A program made the position numbers and the translations under genes. From Methanolobus vulcani (GTDB lineage Archaea; Halobacteriota; Methanosarcinia; Methanosarcinales; Methanosarcinaceae), in assembly GCF_900100715.1 (NCBI RefSeq), contig NZ_FNCA01000010.1:1-64000 (forward strand): a DNA stretch of 64,000 bases, in the 5' to 3' direction. Position 1 is the stretch's first letter; each line of letters opens with the position of its first letter. The notes beneath the pieces were generated by a model that was not told where the DNA came from, did no database searches, and saw nothing but the letters and a program-made list of their open reading frames with translations. This document shows, in pieces, positions 331 through 20,681 of this stretch.

Positions 331-1701
331 TTCATTAATCTCACCAGCTACCTGGCTCATCAGTACGTCTGCAAACCCAATAACAGAATTAAGAGGTGTG
401 CGCAGCTCGTGACTTATATTGGCAAGAAACTCGGTCTTTGTTCTGTTTGCAGCTTCCGCATGGATCTTTGACTGAATTATTTCCTCTTCTGCTTTTTTCC
501 TTTCCGTAATATCTGTGCACATTGTAAGAATACGATTATCCGGTATTACCAGGGCTTCGATTACAAGATAAAGTTGATTTCCATTCTTGTTTTCCACTGC
601 AAACTCACCAGTAAATCTACCATTAAGTTTCAGTTGCTTGAAATCATTTTCATAATGGATCTTTTCATTTTTAGGGAACAATTCATAGAAATGCATATTA
701 AGTATATTTTTTCTGGAATATCCTGTAATTCTACAAGCTACAGGATTCACATCTATGCATTTTCCTTCAAAATCAAGAATAAAAATAGGTTGAGGTGAGG
801 CATTTACATATGTCCTGTACTTTTCCTCGCTTTCCTGCAACGCTTTTTGTGCTATTCTTTCCCTGTGAATGTCGACAGCCATCTCGAATCTGACCATGCG
901 TCCGTCAGGCCATTCAATAGCTTTGTCGATGCAGCGATACCAGCGTTTATTTTTACTATTCTGTGTTTCCCAGACATGGGCTTTTCCAGTATTTTCTCCG
1001 AAAATCAAATGATTTGTACAGAATGAGCATGGAAAATCAATTCCCTGAAGGGCTTTGTAGCATTTTTCACCTACAATATCGTCTCCCATATCTTTTTTAA
1101 TTGCCCGGTTAGCAAAAAGAAGTTCGTAGGTAGCAGGGTCAGCAACGTATGCTGGGTCATCGAATGCTTCTATTACTGAAAGAAGCTGTTCATGCGCTCT
1201 GGCAAGGTCCTCCTCTTCTTTTCTTTGAAGAGTAATGTCCCTGCTTATTCCCATAGTGCCAATGAATTCATTTTTTTCAGTATAAAGAGGTGCCTTATAA
1301 GTTTCAAAGAACCTTTTTATTCCATCAGGAAAAGTAACCCACTCTTCATTTCGATTGGGTTGTTTTTCCATGATGACTTTTTTATCAATTATTCGAACTG
1401 AATCAGCATCATCTTTGCTGAGGAAATCGTAATCTGTTTTGCCGATAATATCTTCTATTTTCATTCCGAATGATTTTGCCAATTCAGAGTTACAAAGAAG
1501 ATATTTTCCATTTTCATCTTTCCAATAGACAAGTTCAGGTACTGATTTTAATAGTCCTTCAAGCAAGACATTTTTCCGGGTCAATTCCTCTTCTTTATCT
1601 TTTTTAAAGGTATCAAAGGATAACTCTAACTCATTAACCAGTTTCTTAAGATCTTGATTCTCTTTCTCAAGTTTTCCATCCGATAATTCATCCGTTGTCA
1701 T
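331..1701 (-). pseudogene. Multi-PAS sensor histidine kinase truncated by an IS insertion
   Basis: Starts at ATG 1701. Residues 10-50 look coiled-coil; PAS1 is about 50-160, PAS2 about 170-285, PAS3 about 295-400, and a HisKA dimerisation domain begins at about 415 with the phospho-accepting His431 in ISHELRTPLN. PAS2 carries a CX10CX2C cluster (C214, C225, C228). After GEINE (about residue 457) the homology stops; the frame runs on into the IS element and stops near 256 after about 24 foreign residues. The whole HATPase domain is missing, so autophosphorylation from this gene product is not expected. The intact kinase at 42.4-44.1 kb shows what should follow the H-box. Sensory ligand unknown. 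Confidence 0.88.
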
Positions 1702-1728
1702 AGTAATTCCGGGAATAAAATTTATAGC

Positions 1729-2637
1729 CTATTTCTTTATGAAATCGATTATTTCGATGACAAGTTCCATTGTTTCTTCAATTTTAAGAGCCTGAATGTT
1801 TTCTCTTTTAGGGATAGCTCCGAAGCTATGAGATTCCGGTTTTTTCTTAGGTTCCATCGGAATAATAAGTTCTATCAAATAATCGATAGCTTCAGGGTTT
1901 ATATCGAAGTCCTGTTTTTTTTCAGAGAGCGCTTTTAGCAATTCTTCTGTACCCCTGAAATCTTTTTTCAGATAATCGTAGTAAAGTGACCTGTGGCCTT
2001 CACTTGGAAGGGGAAAATTACTTCTGATGAGGTCTACCAGAAGGCTATTTATGAGTCTTTTTGATAATTCAAGACTTGCCATGTAAAATCCCTGTTTAAA
2101 ACAGGTGTTTATTTCTGTGCGGATAGAATTGTAATGCTCATCAAAAAAATCAAGATCTATCAATTTATTCTGTCTTATAATTGATGATGAGTCCACTCTA
2201 TGTATCGGGTTAATTTTGACAAAACTTTCCATGTCGAAAGTAAAATCGCTAGTTCTTGCAACGGATGCCTGTAAAATGGATATCTGCTCATTCACTCTTT
2301 TAGAGATTATAGTATCTGTATAGTTTTTTGGTCTGTCCTTAAAATAGATTCCATGGATATAGTCCTGTACAGTATATGTGTATTCATTCATTCCTGAACG
2401 TTTGTTAGTATGATACAGACTTTCAAATCTGGTAGCCTTGTCCGGCACCATACTACGAATAAGCGGAAGGCATTTGTTATACCATTTTACATATTCCGAA
2501 GTGAAGATATTACGATTTTTCTGGTATTCATACTCGTTATTAGCAGACATCTCTTCAAGCAGTTCCAGCAGCCTTTCTCCTGTATTCAAAAGACCAGAGA
2601 TATCTTTTCTTGACATGTCGATCGAGTTCTGTCCCAT
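1729..2637 (-). CDS. Conserved hypothetical protein, possibly co-transcribed with the kinase
   Basis: About 302 residues, no signal peptide or membrane segment, rich in charged residues and predicted mostly helical. I recognise no domain. The N-terminal third (LERLLELLEEM-like) and the C-terminus (ETMELVIEIIDFIKK) look like amphipathic helices. It lies 27 bp upstream of the broken histidine kinase on the same strand, which suggests one transcript and perhaps a role linked to that signalling protein. Two adjacent ATGs at 2640 and 2637 are possible; neither has a strong ribosome site. An AT-only stretch (2641-2675) upstream could hold the promoter. Function unknown. Confidence 0.7.
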   Translation of the reverse strand: MGQNSIDMSRKDISGLLNTGERLLELLEEMSANNEYEYQKNRNIFTSEYVKWYNKCLPLIRSMVPDKATRFESLYHTNKRSGMNEYTYTVQDYIHGIYFKDRPKNYTDTIISKRVNEQISILQASVARTSDFTFDMESFVKINPIHRVDSSSIIRQNKLIDLDFFDEHYNSIRTEINTCFKQGFYMASLELSKRLINSLLVDLIRSNFPLPSEGHRSLYYDYLKKDFRGTEELLKALSEKKQDFDINPEAIDYLIELIIPMEPKKKPESHSFGAIPKRENIQALKIEETMELVIEIIDFIKK

Positions 2638-2759
2638 CACATAATATATTACATTTCTTATAATATATAATATATATTCACTAAAAAAAGAATGAACAGA
2701 GTTTTATTCTATCATACCAACATATTTCATATATTTTGAATAGAAGGAGTGTTGTGGAA

Positions 2760-3740
2760 ATGGATGTTCTTTGGCTTGACCAGTCTGATGTCAGAAGTGT
2801 TATAGATATGCCTCTTACCCTGTCTGCTGTGGAGAATGGTTTCAGGGAGCATGGCCTTAAAAAAGTGCAGATGCCTCCGAAATCCTATCTTTATTTTGAG
2901 AAGCACAATGGTGATCTGCGTACCATGCCATCGTTTATGGAAGAAAAGGACATTGCAGGTGTCAAAATTGTCAACGTTCACCCTGATAACCGTGAAAAAG
3001 GTCTTCCAACGGTGATGGCTGTGATAGTTCTCAATTCCACAGAAACCGGTGCTCCTCTTGCGATCATGGACGGTACGCATGTAACTGATATGAGAACCGG
3101 TGCTGCAGGCGGAGTTGCTGCAAAATATCTTGCACGCAAAGATTCACATGTGGTCGGAATGGTTGGCACAGGAGGCCAGGCCAGAACTCAACTGCTGGCA
3201 TTGTCAGAAGTTATGGATGTAGAGGAAGTTAAGATCACCTGCAGGAATATTGCTCACTGTGAGTCCTTTGAAAAGGATATGAAAAAAGTGGTCAATTGTG
3301 ACTTTACTCGAAAGGAAAGTATTAAGGATGTATGTAACTGTGATGTCCTTGTAACGACCACTCCTGTGAGAGAACCGGTTGTGAAGGCCGAATGGATCCA
3401 TGAAGGCACACATATCAATGCCATAGGTGCTGACGCCATGGGTAAGCAGGAACTTGAATCCTCAATTATGAAAAAAGCAAGGATAATTGTTGACGATATT
3501 GTCCAGGCATCCCATTCAGGAGAGGTGAATGTACCGCTGTCTCAGGGAATTATCTCTGAATCAGATATCCATGCCGAACTTGGTGAAGTGGTCGCAGGAG
3601 TAAAAAAAGGTCGTCTTTCTGATGAGGATATTACTATATTTGATTCAACGGGGCTTGCAGTGCAGGATCTTGTGACTGCAAATATTGCTTATACAAAAGC
3701 TGTGGAGCTGGGTATCGGGAAAAAGATGAAGTTGTTCTGA
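2760..3740 (+). CDS. Ornithine cyclodeaminase / mu-crystallin family dehydrogenase (archaeal alanine dehydrogenase-like)
   Basis: About 326 residues of the NAD-dependent ornithine cyclodeaminase/mu-crystallin family. Members include archaeal alanine dehydrogenase (pyruvate plus ammonia to alanine) and ornithine cyclodeaminase (ornithine to proline plus ammonia). Visible marks: GVKIVN with the likely catalytic Lys69, MDGTHVTDMRTGAAGG at about 104-118, and the Rossmann motif GTGGQA at 136-141. The ATG at 2760 is chosen because GGAG at 2746-2749 is spaced 10 bases from it; an in-frame TTG at 2736 lacks such a site. It is transcribed away from the kinase pair. Substrate is unresolved; alanine dehydrogenase is the better guess for a methanogen. 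Confidence 0.85.
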   Translation: MDVLWLDQSDVRSVIDMPLTLSAVENGFREHGLKKVQMPPKSYLYFEKHNGDLRTMPSFMEEKDIAGVKIVNVHPDNREKGLPTVMAVIVLNSTETGAPLAIMDGTHVTDMRTGAAGGVAAKYLARKDSHVVGMVGTGGQARTQLLALSEVMDVEEVKITCRNIAHCESFEKDMKKVVNCDFTRKESIKDVCNCDVLVTTTPVREPVVKAEWIHEGTHINAIGADAMGKQELESSIMKKARIIVDDIVQASHSGEVNVPLSQGIISESDIHAELGEVVAGVKKGRLSDEDITIFDSTGLAVQDLVTANIAYTKAVELGIGKKMKLF

Positions 3741-3785
3741 TCACTGTTGATTGGAAAACGATATTTTCTATTTTTTATTGAACTC

Positions 3786-4347
3786 ATATCAAAACTATAA
3801 ATGCTATTTCACAGGATTTTATTGTGGAAATACTAGTGGAATTCAGAGAACTCTCTGATGAGTAATGGAAGCTTATTCGACTGCATTTACCACCATAACC
3901 AATAAATGAGAGAAAGAGAGCTGATGACCATAAGGTCATCAATGGTATTCTCTTAATTCTAATAACTAGATGGAGATGGGGGAGATATGCCAACTAGTTA
4001 TGCTTCTCTCCAGTCATTGACTTGAAAAAGTTTAAAAGATAGTCAAAAGTAGGAGTATGGAGTGAGATAATAGAATACCTAAAGGATTGTCACTTATCAG
4101 AAAGGTAAGTTTTCTATGGATATTGTTTGTGTTGATAGTGTTTCATGGAAATTAAAAATGGGAGAGAATTCCTAATGCAATGCATACAAAAAAGAAGGGA
4201 CAATAGAACTATTCTTTGCATGGTTGAAAAAGGTATTCAGGAAAATAGCAAGCAGATACTAGAAGGCTAAATATGGTTTTCAGAGGACTGCCGGACATTA
4301 CATGTTTTTTACTGTATTGGTATAAATTTCAAAAAGAGTTTTGAAAT
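3786..4347 (+). mobile_element. Decayed IS5-family element, related to the copy at the left edge
   Basis: A degenerate relative of the edge element. The ends ATATCAAAACT (3786-3796) and the complement of ATTTCAAAACT (4337-4347) match in 10 of 11 bases. Inside, three blocks of transposase coding sequence can be read in order: an N-terminal block from 3839 (RELSDE-stop-WKLIRLHLPP, then RADDHKVINGIL), a middle block near 4116 (MDIVCVDSVS, around the first catalytic Asp) and a C-terminal block from about 4187 (EGTIELFFAWLKK). Stops at 3863, 3896 and 3995, frame changes and an internal deletion make it non-functional. The last 150 bases are about 80 percent identical to the edge copy by eye. Confidence 0.8.
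3839..4343 (+). pseudogene. IS5-family transposase remnant
   Basis: Transposase pseudogene of the decayed element. The N-terminal domain is readable in one frame apart from TAA at 3863, TAA at 3896 and TAG at 3995. The block with the first DDE aspartate (VCVDSVS) is in another frame near 4116-4145. The segment containing the second Asp is deleted, and the C-terminal block with the catalytic Glu (about 4187-4343) has a further in-frame stop near 4260. It explains why this 700-bp stretch has no intact gene. Confidence 0.75.
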
Positions 4348-4514
4348 TGGTTCGAGTAATAGTTGGTTAATTCAGTAACAGTTTGATAATATGGCCATAA
4401 GTTTTATTATAAATTGTGTAAATCTTTTTTTGCTGTATTATAAATACAGTGGGGTTGTTGTCGACTGACAAATCCATAAAAAACCTTCTCTGTATGAAAA
4501 TCTATAAAGTTATG

Positions 4515-4574
4515 GGTTTTTGTCAAAGAGGTATGGGGTACTAAGGTTTTTGTCAAAGAGGTATGGGGTACTAA
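4515..4574 (+). repeat. Perfect 30-bp tandem duplication directly upstream of the protease start
   Basis: Two identical 30-bp units, 4515-4544 and 4545-4574, ending two bases before the ATG at 4577. Each unit carries the purine-rich segment AAAGAGGTATGGGG that could serve as a ribosome site, so the leader of the protease gene has it twice. A recent slippage event or contingency repeat is possible. Confidence 0.95.
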
Positions 4575-4576
4575 AT

Positions 4577-5464
4577 ATGAATACAAAGAAAACAACTTTA
4601 AGCACACTGCTTGTTATTATGCTTGTTTTGGGCACTGTATTAATTCCAGCAGTAAGCGCAAAAAACACAAGTAAAGAAAAGAACCAAGAATCCAATATAA
4701 TATTGGATAAAGACGAAATTGATATAAGTAAACTTTCAACAGATGAAATTCGTGAACTAGCGAAAACAAATGAAAGTGTGAGAAAACTTGTTGAAGAGGA
4801 TATGAAAATTCAACTTGTCAACATCGAAAGCTTTGAAGATATAAGCTGTCTTCCTGATAACTATCCTGAAGACCTCAAAAACCAATCCATAACTCAAATG
4901 AAATCAGATCAACTGGCAAATTCTGATATTTCAACAAGAAGCACAATTAATGTTTATGTATGGATTGTCGCAGACGAAGAATACAGGAGTTATTTTGGTG
5001 ACGACTGGCAAAGCAAAGCATACAACACAATCGAAGGCGCAGACGATGCATTCTATAGTAATCATGACATTAACTTCATAGTTCAGAAATACTCTGAATG
5101 GGATAGTTCATATACAACTGATACATTAGAATTAATGGCAGAAGCACAAAGCGAAATGGGTTGGGATTCTAATCAACAGGGTTGTGATATGATGGCCATT
5201 TTCACAAACCAATATATCGATCATTGGGGTCGTGCAGAATCTATCAATTACTATGGAGGCGACGCATGGATAATGAAACATCAAGGAACTGCCTCAACAG
5301 ATTGGCATCTAGCACAGCATGAAGCTTCTCATAACTATGGTTGTCCAGACCATGGATATGTCACTAGCCCAACTTGCATAATGACCTATACGTACATGTT
5401 CTTAACAGATGACTGGTGCAGTACTTGTGATAGTACTATCGAAACAAACAGAAACCACCTTTAA
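4577..5464 (+). CDS. Secreted zinc metalloprotease (metzincin-like) with Cys-rich active-site region
   Basis: 295 residues. Residues 1-27 are a signal peptide (Lys-rich start, hydrophobic core, cleavage after AVSA), so the protein is exported. A charged pro-region of about 110 residues precedes the catalytic domain. The zinc site is H248-E-A-S-H252-N-Y-G255-C-P-D258-H259, that is HEXXHXXG with D258 or H259 as third ligand, followed by a Met-turn candidate C267-I-M269. Four cysteines (256, 267, 281, 284) crowd this region, in a spacing that recalls archaemetzincins but with Asp-His in the third ligand place as in snapalysin-type enzymes. ATG 4577 is preferred over an upstream TTG because the signal peptide starts there. 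Substrate unknown. Confidence 0.85.
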   Translation: MNTKKTTLSTLLVIMLVLGTVLIPAVSAKNTSKEKNQESNIILDKDEIDISKLSTDEIRELAKTNESVRKLVEEDMKIQLVNIESFEDISCLPDNYPEDLKNQSITQMKSDQLANSDISTRSTINVYVWIVADEEYRSYFGDDWQSKAYNTIEGADDAFYSNHDINFIVQKYSEWDSSYTTDTLELMAEAQSEMGWDSNQQGCDMMAIFTNQYIDHWGRAESINYYGGDAWIMKHQGTASTDWHLAQHEASHNYGCPDHGYVTSPTCIMTYTYMFLTDDWCSTCDSTIETNRNHL

Positions 5465-5472
5465 AACCTTTT

Positions 5473-5501
5473 TGATGTAGAACCCTCTACATCATATTTT
5501 T
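5473..5501 (+). terminator. Hairpin plus T-run after the protease gene
   Basis: A 9-bp perfect stem (5473-5481 with 5486-5494) with a 4-base loop is followed by a T-rich stretch at 5497-5501. It begins 8 bases after the protease stop codon. Confidence 0.75.
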
Positions 5502-5623
5502 ATAAAGTATTGCCAATAATTATGTATCATAATAAATAAAAGAACAAACATTTTGTAAATTCCATCAAAAAAAACATGTATGATGTTTAAACATATTTCC
5601 TTTTTATATGTGAGGGTAACAAA

Positions 5624-5971
5624 ATGACAAACAGAAATTTAAAAATCATTATAATCGGGATTATAGTCGTTATTTTATTATTGTTTGTTTTTCTGGCAAT
5701 ACACAATTCAAACCCTGGTCTTTCAATTAAAGCAAAACAACTCTCGGAAGAACCAAGTTCTTTCTTAGAATTAACGCCTGATGAACTAAATACCTACCCC
5801 TATATACAAAAAGCGATATCCTCGCCAGGAGAAGAAATTAAAGTACCAATAAAAGATCAAGAAGCCATTAATAGAGTCGAGAATTTTGGCTCCCTCTTAG
5901 AAGACAATAATACTCATTTTATCAAAGTTAATGATAAATATTATACTCTTTATGTTGGGTGGGCAACTTAG
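5624..5971 (+). CDS. Small membrane-anchored hypothetical protein
   Basis: 115 residues. A single strongly hydrophobic segment (residues 8-26) follows a short basic N-terminus, so it is an N-terminally anchored protein with an external domain of about 85 residues, ending in an aromatic stretch (YYTLYVGW). GAGGGT at 5613-5618 gives a ribosome site. It is separated from the protease by a terminator and 130 bp. No family was recognised. The external domain contains LTPDELN and several Glu/Asp residues. Function unknown. Confidence 0.7.
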   Translation: MTNRNLKIIIIGIIVVILLLFVFLAIHNSNPGLSIKAKQLSEEPSSFLELTPDELNTYPYIQKAISSPGEEIKVPIKDQEAINRVENFGSLLEDNNTHFIKVNDKYYTLYVGWAT

Positions 5972-6081
5972 TCACTATATTTAAATCATATATTGGAAAG
6001 ATATAGATTCTCATGTTTTCCTGTCAAAACAATGCATAAATTTAAAACTATAAAAAACATTGAATATGATGGTAAATATTC

Positions 6082-6399
6082 TTATACTTTTTCATACGTG
6101 TCTCCTGTAGAAAGGTTCTCGATCTTATAAGCTATCATTACTTTTCCATTGATACCTATATTTCCTCCATATTCCATTGAACCGGCAATACGGAGTCTGT
6201 CATTTCTCACCACAGGGCAGATGCCATAATATAATACAACAAGCCTGTGCGCATCATGTTCAACTGAAAAGATGCTCACATATTTGTTTTTAAGCCATCC
6301 AAATACTATTATTATCGGAATCCCCCAAAAATATGATATTCTATAGATTATATTAGAGTCTGTGACTGCATAGGCTTCTATTGGTTCGTCTTCATTCAT
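6082..6399 (-). CDS. Small hypothetical protein with one hydrophobic segment
   Basis: 105 residues. A hydrophobic stretch at about 20-36 (YFWGIPIIIVFGWLK) could be a membrane segment; the rest is predicted to be beta-rich (RLVVLYYGICPVVRNDRLRI). No family was recognised. It is alone on its strand between two plus-strand genes. Base composition is similar to its neighbours. Start at ATG 6399 without a clear ribosome site. Confidence 0.55.
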   Translation of the reverse strand: MNEDEPIEAYAVTDSNIIYRISYFWGIPIIIVFGWLKNKYVSIFSVEHDAHRLVVLYYGICPVVRNDRLRIAGSMEYGGNIGINGKVMIAYKIENLSTGDTYEKV

Positions 6400-6529
6400 A
6401 ATTTTTCATCTACGGAGTTTACTTTTTATCAGAAGATGTATGTAAATCATCATTTATAAAATAATTTATTGATTATGCTAATTATTTACATTTATCTTTT
6501 TTTTGTGTTTCTTTCAGATTTTCTGATGC

Positions 6530-10887: not shown

Positions 10888-11349
10888 AAATATATGAATG
10901 CTGTAAAGGCTTTATAGAAAACGCTTGCTATTTCACTATTTTGTATATTTATTAATATTCGTTATTTTCTTTGTCAGATAGTTAGGTTAGTGCATTATCT
11001 TTCATCTGGACTTGATTTTTATTTTTTGTTGGAGTAATAATGTCATTCAAAACCGGATATTTTTTATACCATTATGTTTGTTTGAACATAACGCATGAAG
11101 TGCGGAAAGTCAGGCACACAATGCTATGAATGTAAAAAGGGTACGATATTTCTGACATTGCTTTACTTCTGGCCGTGACATCGTGCATATGCATGTAACC
11201 GGCAGACCAGCGGGTTATGCAGGATACAGAATATGCTTAGAGCAACAGTGGAAGCTATAATGCACTTCCTGTTCTCTTGCAGATGCTCAAGTCCATTCAT
11301 TGCAGATTGCAGACTTACAGGTATAAATTACTTGGAAGGTGGAATCTAT
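10888..11349 (+). other. Long, potentially structured leader before the ABC importer operon
   Basis: 462 bp without a protein gene. A TATA-like TTTATA at about 11063-11068 could start a leader of about 250 bases. Several short helices can be drawn: CGCA 11092-11095 with TGCG 11101-11104; GTCAG 11109-11113 with CTGAC 11152-11156; GCAT/AACC at 11191-11200 with GGGTTATGC at 11212-11220; AAGTC 11289-11293 with GACTT 11312-11316. None matches a riboswitch I know, including the cobalamin class. A ribosome site GGAAGGTGG lies at 11334-11342. Confidence 0.35.
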
Positions 11350-12666
11350 ATGAATAAAGAAACAAAAGTTCTTCTGATAACCATAATGATGGTAGTTGCA
11401 GTCTTTTTTAGTGGCTGTGTGGATAGTAAGTTGGTAAATGAAAGTGATCCAGTTTCTGATAAGATCACAGAAAACAATGATTATGTAGTTGAAAAGGAAA
11501 ACAGTACAGATCAAAAAATGATGAGTGTCAGAGATGATATTGAGACTGATAAGAATACTACAGACTTTTCTTTAAATAATACCACTTCTGATTATACATC
11601 TGCCTCTTCTTATTACACAAGCAGTGGCAGTTCATCCAGTTCCAGTAAATCCACTTCTGATGAAACTGTGTCAAGTGATAATTCTACTACTACAGATAAT
11701 AGTACGACAACCTGGAATATTACTGATATGGCAGGAAGAACATCAGAGATCCCAACCCCTGAAAATCTTCAGAAAGTAAGCTGCTTGCATCCGATCCCTA
11801 CTTATATGACATGGAGGCTGGCACCGGAGAAACTTATCAGCATCGATATGGTCTTTAATGCAAACCCTCGTCTTGTGCCTGATGATGCGAATGATTTCCT
11901 ACATAATCTTCCCGTAACGGGAGTCTATTTTAAAGGCATGAATCAGGAACAGATGCTGGCACTTGATCCGGATGTAATAGTATCCATGACCAAGGATCCA
12001 AACATAGATCAGGAACAGATGGACTATGACGCAACAATTGTTGCCATATCCAAAGATAGACTTGGATATTACGAAGAGTCTTTTAGATTCATGGGGGTAT
12101 TACTTGGTAATGAGGGAGAAGCGAATGAACTTGCAGACTACTGGAACAGTTCAATCACAAAAGTGACGGACATCACATCAGAGATACCTGAGGAACAGCG
12201 TCTGAAAGTCTATTATGCATCCCACGACGGCCCTCTTTCAACTGTTGGTCCGGAGACAGTAATGAACTCGATTATCAACCTTGCAGGAGGTACTGGTTTA
12301 TATGACACGAACAGTTCACTAACATCTGCCGATCTGGTAAACGAGCATCTGGCTGTTAACATCGAGCAGATTATTCTGTGGAATCCTGATGTTATCATTA
12401 CAAAAACAGAGACAGAGAAAAATTCGATTCTTAATGACACTCAGTGGGAACCTATAACTGCCGTGCAGAATGGCCGTGTCTATGCAGCTCCTCGCTGGGA
12501 ATCATTGGATGGTGTACAATCTATCATGGGTCTTATGTGGACGGCAGAAACTCTGTATCCGAGCGAGGTTACATTTGATTTCAATACCGAGACACGTGAT
12601 TTCTATTCAAAGTTCTACCTCTACGACAACATGACTGATGAACAGATCGCGGAGACGGTAGCATGA
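11350..12666 (+). CDS. ABC importer substrate-binding lipoprotein, iron-chelate/corrinoid class
   Basis: 438 residues. Lipoprotein signal with FFSGC, lipid-modified Cys23. A low-complexity Ser/Thr/Asn-rich linker fills about residues 30-125, then comes a Peripla_BP_2 (BtuF/FepB-like) domain starting with WNITDMAGRTSEIP and containing the class-typical segments LDPDVIVSM and WNPDVIITK. It binds a metal chelate or cobamide outside the membrane and delivers it to the permease at 13784. ATG 11350 is chosen for the ribosome site GGAAGGTGG and the signal peptide. The stop overlaps the start of the radical SAM gene (ATGA), so the two are translationally coupled. Confidence 0.88.
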   Translation: MNKETKVLLITIMMVVAVFFSGCVDSKLVNESDPVSDKITENNDYVVEKENSTDQKMMSVRDDIETDKNTTDFSLNNTTSDYTSASSYYTSSGSSSSSSKSTSDETVSSDNSTTTDNSTTTWNITDMAGRTSEIPTPENLQKVSCLHPIPTYMTWRLAPEKLISIDMVFNANPRLVPDDANDFLHNLPVTGVYFKGMNQEQMLALDPDVIVSMTKDPNIDQEQMDYDATIVAISKDRLGYYEESFRFMGVLLGNEGEANELADYWNSSITKVTDITSEIPEEQRLKVYYASHDGPLSTVGPETVMNSIINLAGGTGLYDTNSSLTSADLVNEHLAVNIEQIILWNPDVIITKTETEKNSILNDTQWEPITAVQNGRVYAAPRWESLDGVQSIMGLMWTAETLYPSEVTFDFNTETRDFYSKFYLYDNMTDEQIAETVA

Positions 12667-13709
12667 CGGATCTGGCAATGGACTACACAAAGATTCTTCA
12701 GAAAGCTCTTGATGAGCCCATTGATTACGATGAGGCTCTTTACCTTTTTAAAGAGACTGAGAATGCTGTAAAGGCACAGGATCTTTTCCGAACCGCACTG
12801 GCTGTAAGGAATGCAGAGATCGGTAACACTTTCAGGTGGAGCGGTGGGATAGCCTCTGTTCTTCCATGTAAACTGCAGCCTTTATGTTCGTATTGTCCAT
12901 ACTGGACAAAGGACACAACACAGCCACTGACAATTGATGAGATCAAGATTGGCGTGCAATATATAGAAGAGCAGGGTTTGAAGGAATTCCATCTAAGCGG
13001 TGGCACAGACCGTCGTTCAGATGGCAGGGACATTGTAGATATAGTAAGGACAATCGCACCAATGACATCAGCTGACATAACAGTGAATGTAGGTGCTGCC
13101 ATATCAGAGGCAAACATTCAAGAATTGAAACGACTTGGTGTGAAGCGCATAGGTGCTTCTTTTGAAACTGTTAACCGTGATCTTTTCCGTAAGGTAAAGG
13201 CAGGAGATAGTTTTGATGCCAAGGTGGAGCTGGCAGAGATGATCAGCGATGCCGGGCTGGAATTTGGTACGGGAATGCTTGCCGGACTTACAACAGGTCC
13301 TGAACGTTACAAGGACTATGCGGATTTCATGTTCTTTGTCCGTCAGTTCAGGAATCTGAAAAGCGTTTATGTAAGCCGTTTCTTCCCTGTCACAGGAACT
13401 CCAATGGCAGATCATCCGCGCTGCTCGACAATAGAAGGCTCACGTATAATCGCGATAATGCGTCTTATTCTAAGGAATATTGATATTGGCCCGGCAGCAG
13501 GTTGGAGCTACGATGATATTCCCATGTGGGTCATGGCTGGTGGTGGTAATCGCATAGGTGGTGTGCATATCAATCGTGTTCCCGGGTACAAGAATAACTG
13601 GTTCCTGCACTCGGCACTAGAATATCGTGACCGTATGGAGTATCGCAATACTATCGCAACTGCTGAAAAGCTACTGAAAGAAGCAGGTATTGAAGAGGTT
13701 GTTTATTGA
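12663..13709 (+). CDS. Radical SAM protein of the BioB/HydE/HcgA group with a CX5CX2C cluster motif
   Basis: 348 residues. A radical SAM TIM-barrel of the biotin synthase-like group (HydE, PylB, BioB, HcgA). The cluster motif is C69-X5-C75-X2-C78, not the usual CX3CX2C; CX5CX2C is the form known from HcgA, the FeGP-cofactor enzyme. Further marks are HLSGGTDRR (SAM-binding GGE-like region), VGAAISEANIQELKRLGVKRIGAS, and GMLAGLTTGPERY. It overlaps the binding-protein gene by 4 bp and precedes the permease, so it is part of the importer operon. It may modify or build the imported cofactor, or an organometallic centre; this is inferred from context only. No other hcg genes are nearby. Confidence 0.85.
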   Translation: MTDLAMDYTKILQKALDEPIDYDEALYLFKETENAVKAQDLFRTALAVRNAEIGNTFRWSGGIASVLPCKLQPLCSYCPYWTKDTTQPLTIDEIKIGVQYIEEQGLKEFHLSGGTDRRSDGRDIVDIVRTIAPMTSADITVNVGAAISEANIQELKRLGVKRIGASFETVNRDLFRKVKAGDSFDAKVELAEMISDAGLEFGTGMLAGLTTGPERYKDYADFMFFVRQFRNLKSVYVSRFFPVTGTPMADHPRCSTIEGSRIIAIMRLILRNIDIGPAAGWSYDDIPMWVMAGGGNRIGGVHINRVPGYKNNWFLHSALEYRDRMEYRNTIATAEKLLKEAGIEEVVY

Positions 13710-13783
13710 AAATACTTTTTGATAAATGAACATTGATTTTCAGATATAGCTCAGAAATCATGGGACAAGTGGAAATGATAAAT

Positions 13784-14908
13784 ATGAAAAAAACGTGGAG
13801 CCTGTGTAACGTTACTCTGATCAACCGAGTGAAACTTACTTCACATCTGAGTAAAGCACCTATCAATTTCACTTTGTTCCTGTTGCTTTTATGTGTTCTC
13901 ATCATAGCTCTCTTTGTTGGCAGATATCCAATAGACCCGGTCACAGTGGTGATTATTCTGGTTGCCGGTATCATGGAATGGATAGGAAATATGATAGCGG
14001 TCATTACAGGTGTGAAGGTATCCTTCTTCTGGTCGATACGGCATACATGGCCAACAGCTATGAACACTGTTGTCTGGGATGTGAGATTACCCCGGGCGAT
14101 GGCTGTCATTCTGGCAGGATCAGGACTTTCAGTGTCGGGTGCGACCTATCAGGGTGTTTTCCGCAATCCTCTTGTCTCAGAGTCCATTCTTGGTGTTTCT
14201 GCCGGTGCCGGGGTCGGTGCAGCTCTCGCGATTCTGATGGATCAGGGGAACAGCGTCATCCAGTTATCAGCATTCATATTCGGGCTGCTGGCCGTTGGTA
14301 TGACCTTTGCAATAAGCCGTGTCTATCGCAGTAATCCTACGCTGGTTCTCGTGCTGGCAGGAATCATCGTGGGTGGTCTGTTTTCCGCAATCATTTCCCT
14401 CATGAAATTCGTTGCTGATCCATATAGCAAGCTTCCAGATATAGTATTCTGGCTTATGGGTTCTTTCTCAAAGGCTTCTTCTGCAAATCTACTTCCTATC
14501 ATGCCGATTTTCATAATTGCTATGCTTATAATCATTTTACTGCGATGGCAACTTAATGTCCTTTCAATGGGTGATGAAGAGGCAAGGTCATTGGGAATCG
14601 ATACGAAACGTTTTCGTCCAATAGTTATTGTTTGTTCCACTCTTCTGACAGCAGCTGCAGTTTGTATAGGGGGTGTGATCGGCTGGGTGGGACTTATAAT
14701 TCCTCATATTTCCAGAATGGTTGTCGGTCCTGACCACAAAGATATGATAATTGCATCCATACTGCTGGGAGGTTCCTATCTGCTTGCTGTAGACACAATA
14801 TGCAGGACATTGGCATCTGTGGAGATACCCATCAGTATAATCACTTCTATCCTAGGTGCTCCGATATTCCTGTATTTGTTATATAAAGCTAAAAAGACGT
14901 GGTCATGA
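13784..14908 (+). CDS. FecCD/BtuC-family ABC permease
   Basis: About 374 residues with nine to ten hydrophobic segments. Family marks: VRLPRAMAVILAGSGLSVSGATYQGVFRNPLVSE (split here: RLPRAMAVILAGSGLSVSG and NPLVSESILGVSAG), and GWVGLIIPHISRM near the C-terminus, which is the coupling-helix region. It forms the membrane channel for the ligand bound by the lipoprotein at 11350. Possible starts are ATGs at 13760, 13775 and 13784; 13784 has GTGGA 10 bases upstream. The stop overlaps the ATPase start (ATGATG). Confidence 0.88.
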   Translation: MKKTWSLCNVTLINRVKLTSHLSKAPINFTLFLLLLCVLIIALFVGRYPIDPVTVVIILVAGIMEWIGNMIAVITGVKVSFFWSIRHTWPTAMNTVVWDVRLPRAMAVILAGSGLSVSGATYQGVFRNPLVSESILGVSAGAGVGAALAILMDQGNSVIQLSAFIFGLLAVGMTFAISRVYRSNPTLVLVLAGIIVGGLFSAIISLMKFVADPYSKLPDIVFWLMGSFSKASSANLLPIMPIFIIAMLIIILLRWQLNVLSMGDEEARSLGIDTKRFRPIVIVCSTLLTAAAVCIGGVIGWVGLIIPHISRMVVGPDHKDMIIASILLGGSYLLAVDTICRTLASVEIPISIITSILGAPIFLYLLYKAKKTWS

Positions 14909-15696
14909 TGTGTGCAAGACTTGAAGTAAAGAATGCCACTTTTTCCTACGACGGCAAAAGGAATATCTTTGAGGATATCTCCTTCTCTGTCGACCCGGGA
15001 GACGTGTTCTGCATTCTGGGAACAAATGGTACCGGTAAATCCACATTGCTTCGCTGCTTATGTAATTTATATAAATTGAATGCAGGCAGTATATGTATCG
15101 ATGGAAAGGAGATAACTACATATGCACCTAAAACCCTGGCCCGGAAGATAGGTTTCATTCCTCAGATCCACACACCCACTTTTCCATATTCGGTACTGCA
15201 GGTGGTCATGATGGGCAGAACACCACATCTGAATACTTTTGCAACGCCTTCAATGAATGATATGGATATTGCACTGGAAGCTCTCAGAACGGTAAACATC
15301 GAACATATAAAAGACAAACCATATACCGAACTCAGCGGTGGACAAATGCAACTTGTGCTCATGGCCCGTGTGCTTGCCCAGGAACCCGAGATCCTGCTGC
15401 TTGATGAACCGACTTCTCATCTGGATGTGGGTAATCAGATCAGTACTATTGAAATGGTCCGCAAATTATCACGTAAAGGTCTGTCTCTGATTATGACTTC
15501 ACATTTTCCAGACCACACTTTCCTTTCATCCAGTAAGGTTGGCATCATGAAGGATAAAAAATTCCTTGCCATGGGGCATGCCGATGAGGTTGTCACCGAA
15601 GAAAACCTGCAGGAAACCTATGGAGTACCTATAAAAATTGTCAGAATTGACGGAGAGATCAATCGCAAGATTGCAGTACCGGTAATAAGAGAATAA
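14905..15696 (+). CDS. ABC importer ATP-binding subunit (BtuD/FepC-like)
   Basis: About 263 residues. Walker A LGTNGTGKST, Q-loop GFIPQ, signature ELSGGQMQ, Walker B EILLLDEPTSHLD and the switch His in TSHFP are all present. It powers uptake with the permease it overlaps by 4 bp. The C-terminal extension (about 220-263) is typical of the iron/cobamide class. Last gene of the 11350-15696 operon; the next gene is 100 bp downstream. Confidence 0.9.
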   Translation: MMCARLEVKNATFSYDGKRNIFEDISFSVDPGDVFCILGTNGTGKSTLLRCLCNLYKLNAGSICIDGKEITTYAPKTLARKIGFIPQIHTPTFPYSVLQVVMMGRTPHLNTFATPSMNDMDIALEALRTVNIEHIKDKPYTELSGGQMQLVLMARVLAQEPEILLLDEPTSHLDVGNQISTIEMVRKLSRKGLSLIMTSHFPDHTFLSSSKVGIMKDKKFLAMGHADEVVTEENLQETYGVPIKIVRIDGEINRKIAVPVIRE

Positions 15697-18482: not shown

Positions 18483-19154
18483 ATGGCTCAACTCAGGCAA
18501 TATAGTTTCTTAATTTACTGTCTAGTAGCCTTAATTCTTGTTTTAGCTGGCGGATGCGTTGAAAATTCACCCCAGGAGGTTAATACTTCCGGCGAAGCTA
18601 CCGTTTTTGAAGGACAGGAACTGACCCCTATCTCAGAACAGAGAAATAATGCTATTCAAGGTACTCAGTACATAGATCCGGATACATATGAGCTAAGAAT
18701 TTATGGCCTGGTTGATAATCCTGTCAACCTGAGCTATGATCAGTTGCTTGCATATCCTTCAGTTTCAAGATTCGTGCGCATGGACTGTGTTGAAGGCTGG
18801 GGATTCGATGCAAAATGGACCGGTGTTACGCTGAACACATTGTTCAATGAAACTGGCATCAACAGTAGTGCAACGACGGTCGTATTCTATTGTACAGACG
18901 GCTATTCAACTTCACTTGAGCTGGATTATCTTGTGGACAATGACATCATGCTTGCCTATAAACTCAATGACATAACCCTGCCTGCAGACAGAGGATTCCC
19001 TCTGCAGCTTGTGGCCGAGGATAAGTATGGTTACAAGTGGGCAAAATGGATTACTGCCATTGAAGTTATCAATGAACCCTACAAGGGATACTGGGAAAGC
19101 GTGGGTTACAACAACAACGCGGATGTTGGTGGTCCAGCGTTTGAGAGAAAATAA
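18483..19154 (+). CDS. Lipoprotein with a sulfite-oxidase-type molybdopterin domain
   Basis: 223 residues. Lipobox LAGGC with Cys25 as the lipidated residue, then an Oxidored_molyb domain: DTYELRIYGLVDNPVNLSYDQL, FVRMDCVEGWGFDAKWTGV with the Cys that ligates molybdenum in this superfamily, and DRGFPLQLVAEDKYGYKWAKW. At this length it has only the cofactor-binding domain. It acts on the outer face of the membrane. Some archaeal members may lack cofactor. Ribosome site GGAGGT at 18472-18477. It precedes the Ccm-like genes, which would fit a redox role linked to cytochrome c. Confidence 0.82.
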   Translation: MAQLRQYSFLIYCLVALILVLAGGCVENSPQEVNTSGEATVFEGQELTPISEQRNNAIQGTQYIDPDTYELRIYGLVDNPVNLSYDQLLAYPSVSRFVRMDCVEGWGFDAKWTGVTLNTLFNETGINSSATTVVFYCTDGYSTSLELDYLVDNDIMLAYKLNDITLPADRGFPLQLVAEDKYGYKWAKWITAIEVINEPYKGYWESVGYNNNADVGGPAFERK

Positions 19155-19174
19155 TTCTGAAAATCAGTTTTTTC

Positions 19175-19210
19175 CGTTTTGTCCTGAAATCAACACTTCT
19201 GGACAAAACG
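19175..19210. promoter_or_regulatory. Perfect 10-bp inverted repeat between lipoprotein and ccmA-like genes
   Basis: CGTTTTGTCC (19175-19184) and GGACAAAACG (19201-19210) are exact inverted copies with a 16-base spacer. The site ends 6 bases before the TATA box of the next gene. It may be an activator site, or a terminator hairpin of the upstream gene, though no T-run follows. Confidence 0.55.
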
Positions 19211-19215
19211 TTAAT

Positions 19216-19223
19216 CTATATAA
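19216..19223 (+). promoter_or_regulatory. TATA box of ccmA-like gene, leaderless start likely
   Basis: CTATATAA about 23 bases before ATG 19242 and no ribosome site between them, so the transcript probably starts at or next to the initiation codon. Confidence 0.6.
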
Positions 19224-19241
19224 CCAATAAATATAGCTCCA

Positions 19242-19988
19242 ATGGACAGTATCATCTCTATCACCGGTCTTTCAAAGAGCTTTGGGCGAAGGCAAGCATT
19301 GAACAATATCGATCTTGAGATCAAAAAAGGTGAGTTCGTTGCCGTATTCGGTCCCAACGGGGCCGGAAAGACCACTATTCTAAAGATAATGTCCACGATC
19401 ATCAATCCTTCCAGAGGAAGTGTGCTTGTTAATGAAATTGACGCCAAAAAACACCCTGAGAAAATAAGGGGTATGATAGGTGCAATCTCTCATGAGACTT
19501 ACCTTTACGATGAACTGACAGCAAGAGAAAACCTTGTTTTTTTCGGACGCATGTATGGAATTGAGAACAATAATATTGATGAAAAAGTTGATTCCATACT
19601 CAAAAGTGTAAATCTCCTTCAGCGTGCAGATGAACGTGCCGGTTCATTTTCAAGAGGTATGAAACAGAGGCTTTCTATTGCAAGGGCATTGTTGCATAAG
19701 CCTGAGATTCTGCTCATGGATGAGCCATATACCGGACTTGATCAGCATGCTGCTGCTAATTTTGAGCGTGTGCTCATGAGTACCGGAGATTCTGATGTTA
19801 CAAGGATAATGATAACCCACAACATCGAGCGTGCCTTTGAACTATGCGACCGCATGCTCATAATGGATAAGGGAGAAATACGCTTTGATAAACTAAAAAC
19901 TGAAATTGAAAGCGTGGATGATTTCAGGGAACAGTACCTTTCCATAGTGGAAAAGGATACCGATGCAGAGGGAATAAGTAACGTTTAA
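19242..19988 (+). CDS. ccmA: ABC transporter ATPase, CcmA-like (cytochrome c maturation)
   Basis: 248 residues. Walker A FGPNGAGKTT, signature FSRGMKQRLSIARAL, Walker B EILLMDEPYTGLD, switch His in THNIERA. The match to CcmA rests on the next gene being CcmB-like and on a CcmC homologue downstream; alone it could be any ABC-2-type ATPase. In bacteria CcmA with CcmB and CcmC releases haem-loaded CcmE for cytochrome c assembly. Methanosarcinales with c-type cytochromes carry such genes. CcmB follows after 18 bp. Confidence 0.82.
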   Translation: MDSIISITGLSKSFGRRQALNNIDLEIKKGEFVAVFGPNGAGKTTILKIMSTIINPSRGSVLVNEIDAKKHPEKIRGMIGAISHETYLYDELTARENLVFFGRMYGIENNNIDEKVDSILKSVNLLQRADERAGSFSRGMKQRLSIARALLHKPEILLMDEPYTGLDQHAAANFERVLMSTGDSDVTRIMITHNIERAFELCDRMLIMDKGEIRFDKLKTEIESVDDFREQYLSIVEKDTDAEGISNV

Positions 19989-20006
19989 TCTGCCTGTGGT
20001 GAGATA

Positions 20007-20681
20007 ATGAAGAAAAGCCTCTACATTGCAGCAAAAGACCTGAAATACGAGTTTCGCACAAAACAGATGCTCAATTCCATGCTTATCTTCTCGCTTATCG
20101 TCATAGTTATTTTCAGCATCTCGTTCGTTGATGTTCTCAGTCAGACAGAACTTGTAGGAAAACTCGCACCTGGTGTTCTTTGGGTGGCTTTCACCTTTGC
20201 AGGCACTCTGGGACTTTCACGTTCCTTTGCAGGTGAGATGGAGAACGGCTGTCTTGAAGGTTTGAAACTTTCACCAATTGACAGGAGCTCGATCTACATC
20301 GGGAAGACAATATCAAATGCTGTCCTGATGTTCATTGTGGAATTGCTCACAATACCAATCTTCATAGTTTTGTTCAACTACAATATCAGTGGCATTCCGG
20401 GACTTGCACTTGTAATTTTTCTGGGAACGTTTGGTTTTGTCAGTGTGGGAACCCTGCTTTCAGCATTGTCAGCAAGCACAAGGGCAAGGGAGATCATGCT
20501 TCCGGTGCTTCTGCTTCCGTTAATTATTCCTGTGATCATTCCTGCTGTTATGGCAACCGGGACGATACTCACAGATGGCGGAATTAGTAGTATTTCTTCG
20601 GAACTCAGGTTGCTTATAGTGTATGATCTGATATTCTTCGTTGTAGGACAGCTTGTGTTCGAATATACTGTGATGGATTAA
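20007..20681 (+). CDS. ccmB: CcmB-family membrane protein (haem export/cytochrome c maturation)
   Basis: 224 residues with six hydrophobic segments. The start (AAKDLKYEFRTKQMLNSMLIF) and the stretch LGLSRSFAGEMENGCLEGLKLSP are typical of CcmB, as is the helix near SALSASTRAREIMLPVLLLP. It is the membrane partner of CcmA. Ribosome site GGTGAG 4 bases before ATG. No CcmE, CcmF or CcmH gene is visible in the window. Confidence 0.87.
   Translation: MKKSLYIAAKDLKYEFRTKQMLNSMLIFSLIVIVIFSISFVDVLSQTELVGKLAPGVLWVAFTFAGTLGLSRSFAGEMENGCLEGLKLSPIDRSSIYIGKTISNAVLMFIVELLTIPIFIVLFNYNISGIPGLALVIFLGTFGFVSVGTLLSALSASTRAREIMLPVLLLPLIIPVIIPAVMATGTILTDGGISSISSELRLLIVYDLIFFVVGQLVFEYTVMD

Follow-up and report, generated by a model that had tools for sequence, protein, structure and literature searches.

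The four-gene operon at positions 11350-15696 of the window (the whole 64,000-nucleotide stretch of Methanolobus vulcani DNA analyzed here) places an HcgA-related radical SAM enzyme within a putative metal importer, and lies behind an operator palindrome of the molybdenum/tungsten (Mo/W) type. The operator, a new result absent from the sequence-only reading of this DNA, the genes that share it, the linkage of importer and enzyme, and the identities of the parts were read directly from the sequence, and from them we infer regulation, cargo and reaction. In the explanation that we favor, for which we see an even chance, this would be an uptake operon for Mo/W shortage that imports a metal-ligand complex whose ligand is made or processed by the radical enzyme.

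Operon parts and the radical SAM enzyme

The features of the locus are as follows:

11063..11070, + strand: TATA-like box TTTATACC, directly before the operator; presumed promoter element
11070..11093, no strand assigned: operator palindrome CATTATGTTTGTTTGAACATAACG, a ModE-type (Mo/W) site judged by sequence
11126..11205, + strand: decayed start of a sibling-type lipoprotein gene (captured 5' leader), with start codon, signal peptide, lipobox codons and a broken frame
11350..12666, + strand: substrate-binding lipoprotein (PF01497), of the class of MolA/YiuA/4pag
12663..13709, + strand: HcgA-like radical SAM enzyme, 348 aa, C69-X5-C75-X2-C78
12867..12896, + strand: codons for the CX5CX2C motif CKLQPLCSYC, position computed from residues 69-78
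13733..14908, + strand: FecCD-type permease (PF01032), closest to HI1471 (MolB) among solved structures; its exact start is uncertain
14899..15696, + strand: ABC ATPase, nearest solved structure HI1470 (MolC)

The four genes are arranged on one strand as one operon, in the order lipoprotein, radical SAM enzyme, FecCD permease and ATPase. The ATGA start of the radical SAM gene shares 4 bp with the stop of the lipoprotein gene, and both this overlap and the position of the enzyme gene ahead of the permease gene agree exactly with what the sequence-only reading had described. The lipoprotein start at 11350 is backed by three Methanosarcina orthologues; a longer reading frame from 11233, an in-frame ATG upstream, was rejected as an artefact. 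PF01497 (71.5 bits, cut-off 27.5), PF01032 (282.4, cut-off 26.5) and PF00005 (108.1, cut-off 25) were all detected above their cut-offs in this one operon, which assigns the importer to the BtuCD/FecCD class. The same four genes were found in the same order in three Methanosarcina genomes, and the window operon contains no methyltransferase gene. At 18483-20681, 3 kb past the operon, the window also encodes a lipoprotein with a molybdopterin-oxidoreductase domain and, after it, an ABC ATPase and a CcmB-like membrane protein; the operator site is absent there.

The enzyme belongs to the radical SAM superfamily, with a PF04055 score of 55.2 bits (cut-off 29.5) and a full barrel in its AlphaFold model (pLDDT 90.7), to which HydE, BioB and PylB are the nearest solved structures (TM 0.74-0.80; HydE approximately 0.79). 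Its CKLQPLCSYC motif starts at residue 69 and gives exactly the C69-X5-C75-X2-C78 spacing noted previously; the three cysteines were invariant in 27 of 27 aligned relatives, HcgA among them. The best curated family match was TIGR03957 (HcgA/HmdB) at 151.7 bits against a cut-off of 320.9, followed by BioB (74.5), PylB (65.0) and HydE (47.3). Genuine HcgA proteins of the same phylum scored 520-602 bits with TIGR03957.

In a tree of 34 rows, the window protein did not fall in a BioB-type clade and was also placed outside HcgA, which formed a clade of its own (99/98). It grouped in one clade (100/98) with the orthologues from Methanosarcina and with the enzyme of L118, distant at 33% identity; this clade joined the other importer-linked proteins and the L054-L056 clade at 96/96. 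A single clade of all importer-linked rows was not rejected (p-AU 0.151), which is short of monophyly shown by the tree. L054, L055 and L056 represent a further CX5CX2C radical SAM clade without an importer, and the gene next to the enzyme in L055 encodes a DeoC/LacD-type aldolase.

No hcg gene was recognized among the scanned neighbors (8.2 to 17.9 kb), in line with the sequence-only reading, and a search of the whole genome returned no protein above the HcgA cut-off. A true HcgA was ruled out on score, tree position and gene context. By these comparisons the enzyme is a member of an HcgA-related archaeal subfamily of patchy distribution, and not HcgA. The designation HcgA-like therefore holds for the best curated match and the motif but not for the score or the clade, and since several separate clades share CX5CX2C, this spacing loses the status of a hallmark of HcgA alone that had been given to it. 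Plasmids and viral contigs, searched for bacterial relatives, yielded no more than BioB, HydE and weak matches lacking annotation, or no match at all, and no literature on this subfamily was found among papers pairing 'radical SAM' with 'CX5CX2C'.

Importer linkage across the subfamily and the cargo

An importer component was encoded within 3.5 kb of the enzyme gene at all 21 subfamily loci, which are not all independent because four of them are near-identical operons (the window and three Methanosarcina). This count includes L105, where the importer is represented by a partial ATPase gene on the other strand, and excludes L053, where the locus ends at the contig end. Binding proteins or permeases of these kinds were present at none of five HcgA loci and none of the three loci of the L054-L056 clade, with one ABC-ATPase-like match nearby in L054. 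Judged by gene context, the link between importer and radical SAM enzyme is general in the subfamily and is not limited to this genome.

The class of importer differs by locus. Most are of the BtuCDF type, while Opp/NikA-like binding proteins occur in L045 (274 bits for the NikA-like proteins, cut-off 393) and L112, and an ECF-type system in L046 (CbiQ-like T component, ECF ATPases and a Trep_Strep-family membrane protein). The 4-bp overlap with the lipoprotein gene recurs in L047-L051 with the gene order reversed. Methyltransferase genes adjoin at seven of the 21 loci (L044, L045, L048, L049, L105, L114 and L116), PNPOx and cupin genes are found near the enzyme at some loci, and nitrogenase-like subunits or CobN/BchH-type chelatases are neighbors in L109, L114, L115 and L117. 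An obvious exporter was absent from most loci, the exceptions being L052, L109 and L112.

Some of these loci show further peculiarities. In L046 (8866-12718), the HcgA-like enzyme gene is located between that for the Trep_Strep-family membrane protein and those for the ECF T and A components. L045 encodes two tandem HcgA-like enzymes and, at 3174-6520, two DUF364-type proteins (described in Pfam as putative heavy-metal chelation) amid the Opp/NikA-like binding proteins. Uncharacterized nitrogenase-like HDK genes in L109 (5015-8581) and L117 (2171-3999) stand in operons that also encode the HcgA-like enzyme and MolA/BtuF-type lipoproteins, and BchH/CobN-type chelatases stand beside the enzyme and lipoproteins in L115 (2506-6306) and L114 (13596-17408), both from non-phototrophic archaea. 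The nitrogenase-like Isr system is also paired with a radical SAM enzyme, reported to be closest to BciD (PMC11423573).

With regard to the cargo, HI1471 was the solved structure closest to the permease (237.4 bits, runner-up 167.5) and HI1470 that closest to the ATPase (160.8 bits, runner-up 137.2); the binding protein of this importer was deposited as a molybdate binding protein (3psa). MolABC was the nearest match for the permease and the ATPase but not for the lipoprotein, whose family profile gave 163.6 bits with MolA, 175-204 with siderophore or unknown binders, approximately 67 with heme binders and approximately 58 with BtuF, and which also resembles the iron/siderophore binder YiuA. 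The likeness to MolB was taken as supporting evidence only, because the L048 permease, used as a control, matched FhuB slightly better than MolB. Taken together, Mo/W or a metal-ligand complex fits better than B12 as the predicted cargo. The iron/corrinoid importer of the sequence-only reading survives only as a generic family name: the solved structures nearest to the permease and ATPase are those of a molybdate-type importer, and the promoter bears a Mo/W-type operator.

The Mo/W-type operator and the origin of the promoter

The region upstream of the lipoprotein gene is conserved, with a core composed of TTTATACC followed by CATTATGTTTGTTTGAACATAACG, and the TATA-like TTTATACC is kept in five loci and ahead of sibling operons. 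When the 2.95-Mb genome was searched for CGTTATG-N10-CATAACG with up to two mismatches, five places were found, each with 0 or 1 mismatch. The loose site count alone is no argument, since the reversed control pattern gave six places at up to two mismatches. A degenerate consensus had four exact genome matches plus one at one mismatch, whereas 3 Mb of simulated sequence contained none that was exact; a Markov control expects about two places at up to one mismatch to this consensus. The five sites precede modABC, a Wtp/Mod-like ABC operon, a sibling operon, an S-layer gene (TIGR01567, 225.1 bits, cut-off 121.9) and the window operon, and only these; none precedes a nitrogenase operon. The sibling operon has the order lipoprotein-lipoprotein-methyltransferase-radical SAM, its radical SAM protein being AmmeMemoRadiSam-like (86.5 bits against a cut-off of 220).

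In 26 relatives, 85 operator sites were counted versus 10 control sites (sum of forward columns). Within the regions fetched from relatives, sites precede modABC in ten loci, Wtp-like operons in four, fmdE operons in four (PF02663, 109.6 bits), sibling operons in eight, S-layer genes in five and one Opp-type transporter, and in relatives they are also found before vanadium-type (VNFD, 1007.8 bits) and iron-type nitrogenase operons. At subfamily loci outside Methanosarcinaceae there was no convincing site, and a crude pattern scan of the fetched loci found no ModE gene. In Methanosarcinales, ModE controls modABC and the nitrogenase types (PMC9765008, which also refers to a survey of archaeal ModE elements). 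We read the site as a ModE-type operator because the downstream genes fit and ModE control is stated in that work. The set of sites matches the ModE (Mo/W) regulon, of which the window operon would be a member. Within the literature covered, to which the ModE survey cited in PMC9765008 does not belong, no report of radical SAM/lipoprotein operons or S-layer genes in a ModE regulon was found.

The sibling operon (L123, G000:C15:76001-89000; 1323-6084, - strand) encodes a pair of MolA-like lipoproteins, a methyltransferase and an AmmeMemoRadiSam-like radical SAM protein of 590 aa, and operons of this type are kept in relatives, Methanosarcina included. An S-layer gene lies directly behind the same type of operator in six genomes (L122, 5295-6649, - strand; L160, L161, L162, L167 and L169). 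Two or three operator sites per promoter region were observed in L180, L182, L165 and L113; behind these multi-site promoters lie operons for V- and Fe-type nitrogenases, one of the sibling type and, in UBA11020, the orthologous operon with the radical SAM gene.

The leader is 72-77% identical across five loci and is present even at L118. A riboswitch was ruled out, as the RNA fold had a z-score of -1.0 with little covariation, the sole Rfam match was far under its gathering threshold, and the leader matched sibling genes. A covariance model of the leader gave 39-67 bits at sibling lipoprotein genes, where it matched the promoter together with the first codons, and only about 27-34 bits where just the operator is common. 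Further, the start codon, signal peptide and lipobox codons are decayed in the leader alignment and the frame is broken early. These matches and the decayed codons indicate that the operon promoter was captured from a sibling-type operon, the leader being, on this alignment, a relic of the captured promoter and gene start.

Horizontal exchange is likely from sequence comparison. The enzymes of the window genome and M. spelaei share 88% identity and the ATPases 87%, compared with 67-69% for the sibling radical SAM protein, 56% for modA and 71% for modB in the same two genera, and no orthologue was found in any of 26 same-genus genomes searched. With the lipoprotein (65%) not unusually conserved, the case for exchange is built on enzyme, ATPase and distribution.

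Possible functions and comparison with known systems

In the favored explanation, a ModE-type protein would occupy the operator behind the TATA box and block transcription when Mo or W is plentiful, and the operon would be transcribed when they are short. The lipoprotein would capture a small metal-ligand complex, most likely of Mo or W, the permease and ATPase would carry it into the cell, and the HcgA-like enzyme would apply SAM radical chemistry to the organic ligand. A ModE-type switch at the importer promoter and an enzyme gene locked into the operon together make it probable that the enzyme produces or modifies a molecule that carries metal and is imported at Mo/W shortage; help in building the ligand is somewhat more likely than its dismantling to free the metal. 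The previous suggestion that an imported metal-organic compound may be the substrate or the product of the enzyme gains strength.

The pyridinol that HcgA forms from a small, unknown precursor is methylated by HcgC (PMC10100467). For an HcgA relative that occurs with exchangeable metal-complex importers, frequent methyltransferases and a Mo/W-type operator, the simplest role to suggest is making or modifying a small molecule that binds metal. More specifically, and tentatively enough to be called doubtful, the enzyme may help to make an archaeal Mo/W metallophore that is produced by radical SAM chemistry, perhaps pyridinol-like, released to bind Mo or W, and retaken by the importer recruited in each lineage. 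We know of no molybdophore in methanogens, nor of any radical SAM enzyme in this group that makes a metallophore. Against uptake of a metal-ligand complex at Mo/W shortage stand the confinement of the operator to Methanosarcinaceae loci, a regulator gene that was not located, the lack of an obvious exporter at most loci, the chelatases or nitrogenase-like subunits at some distant loci, which suggest tetrapyrroles, the non-specific similarity to MolB (L048 permease, FhuB) and the lack of a methyltransferase gene in the window operon.

The chelatase and nitrogenase-like neighbors in distant loci are the strongest competing clue. They point to salvage of a tetrapyrrole or corrinoid, which would be imported and remodeled by the radical SAM enzyme, joined in some lineages by methyltransferases, chelatases and nitrogenase-like reductases. 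The BchH/CobN-type chelatase at operon-like spacing in L115 (CobN is convergent in L114), the nitrogenase-like subunits in L109 and L117, the BtuCDF class of the importer and the weak similarity of adjoining methyltransferases to BchU, BchM and CbiT are all consistent with it. However, the lipoprotein family is distant from BtuF and heme binders, and the window and Methanosarcina operons carry the Mo/W-type operator and lack these chelatase and reductase genes, so that we regard tetrapyrrole salvage as unlikely. Even less probable is the import of Fe or V complexes as a substitute metal supply under Mo shortage, serving enzymes that need no Mo, e.g., alternative nitrogenases. The nitrogenase operons of V type (VNFD, 1007.8 bits) and Fe type behind the same operator type in relatives and the likeness of the lipoprotein to YiuA agree with it, whereas none of the five sites in the window genome precedes a nitrogenase operon and the main partners in the regulon are mod and Wtp-like operons rather than transporters for Fe or V.

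We attach the same low probability to import of bare molybdate or tungstate as by MolABC, with the radical SAM enzyme merely co-regulated for an unrelated Mo/W task, e.g., cofactor maturation. The regulon company of the operator and the proximity of permease and ATPase to HI1471 and HI1470 would be expected in that case, but the enzyme is also kept with ECF and Opp/NikA-like importers, which are not oxyanion transporters, and mere co-regulation is therefore unlikely. That the enzyme is a second HcgA, making the FeGP pyridinol or salvaging the FeGP cofactor, is very improbable: CX5CX2C is common to both and HmdB/HcgA is the best curated match, but the score is less than half of the curated cut-off, the clade is separate, hcg genes are absent nearby, no HcgA is above the cut-off genome-wide, and HcgA loci are without an importer.

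These results define, next to HcgA, a radical SAM subfamily with genes tied to systems for metal uptake, and provide it with a testable physiological setting, Mo/W shortage. Little is known of how methanogens acquire Mo and W beyond oxyanion transporters, and the second radical SAM/methyltransferase/lipoprotein operon of the regulon and its S-layer gene open the whole low-molybdenum response to experiment, Methanosarcina species with the operon (e.g., M. spelaei) being suitable hosts.

Compared with known systems, the window enzyme has the CX5CX2C motif, the fold group and the best curated family match in common with HcgA/HmdB, and differs in its C-terminal part and in having importer neighbors rather than hcg genes. 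HydE, PylB and BioB have the same full barrel but carry CX3CX2C and lie outside the CX5CX2C clade of the window protein. Among importers, MolABC (HI1470-HI1472) is the best structural match of the permease and ATPase, with 164 bits between the lipoprotein family and MolA, a likeness that is not exclusive (L048 permease, FhuB). To our knowledge, the crystallized MolABC importer includes no radical SAM gene. The staphylopine/nickelophore systems (Cnt, Nik) also place small-molecule enzymes beside a metal-complex importer, with NikA-like binding proteins in L045 as a further parallel, yet they employ other biosynthetic enzymes, in contrast with the radical SAM chemistry and mostly no obvious exporter here. 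Lastly, as in the ModE regulon of Methanosarcinales, an operator is common to the window operon and to modABC, Wtp-like, fmdE and alternative nitrogenase operons, while the members here differ in that they include radical SAM/lipoprotein operons and S-layer genes.
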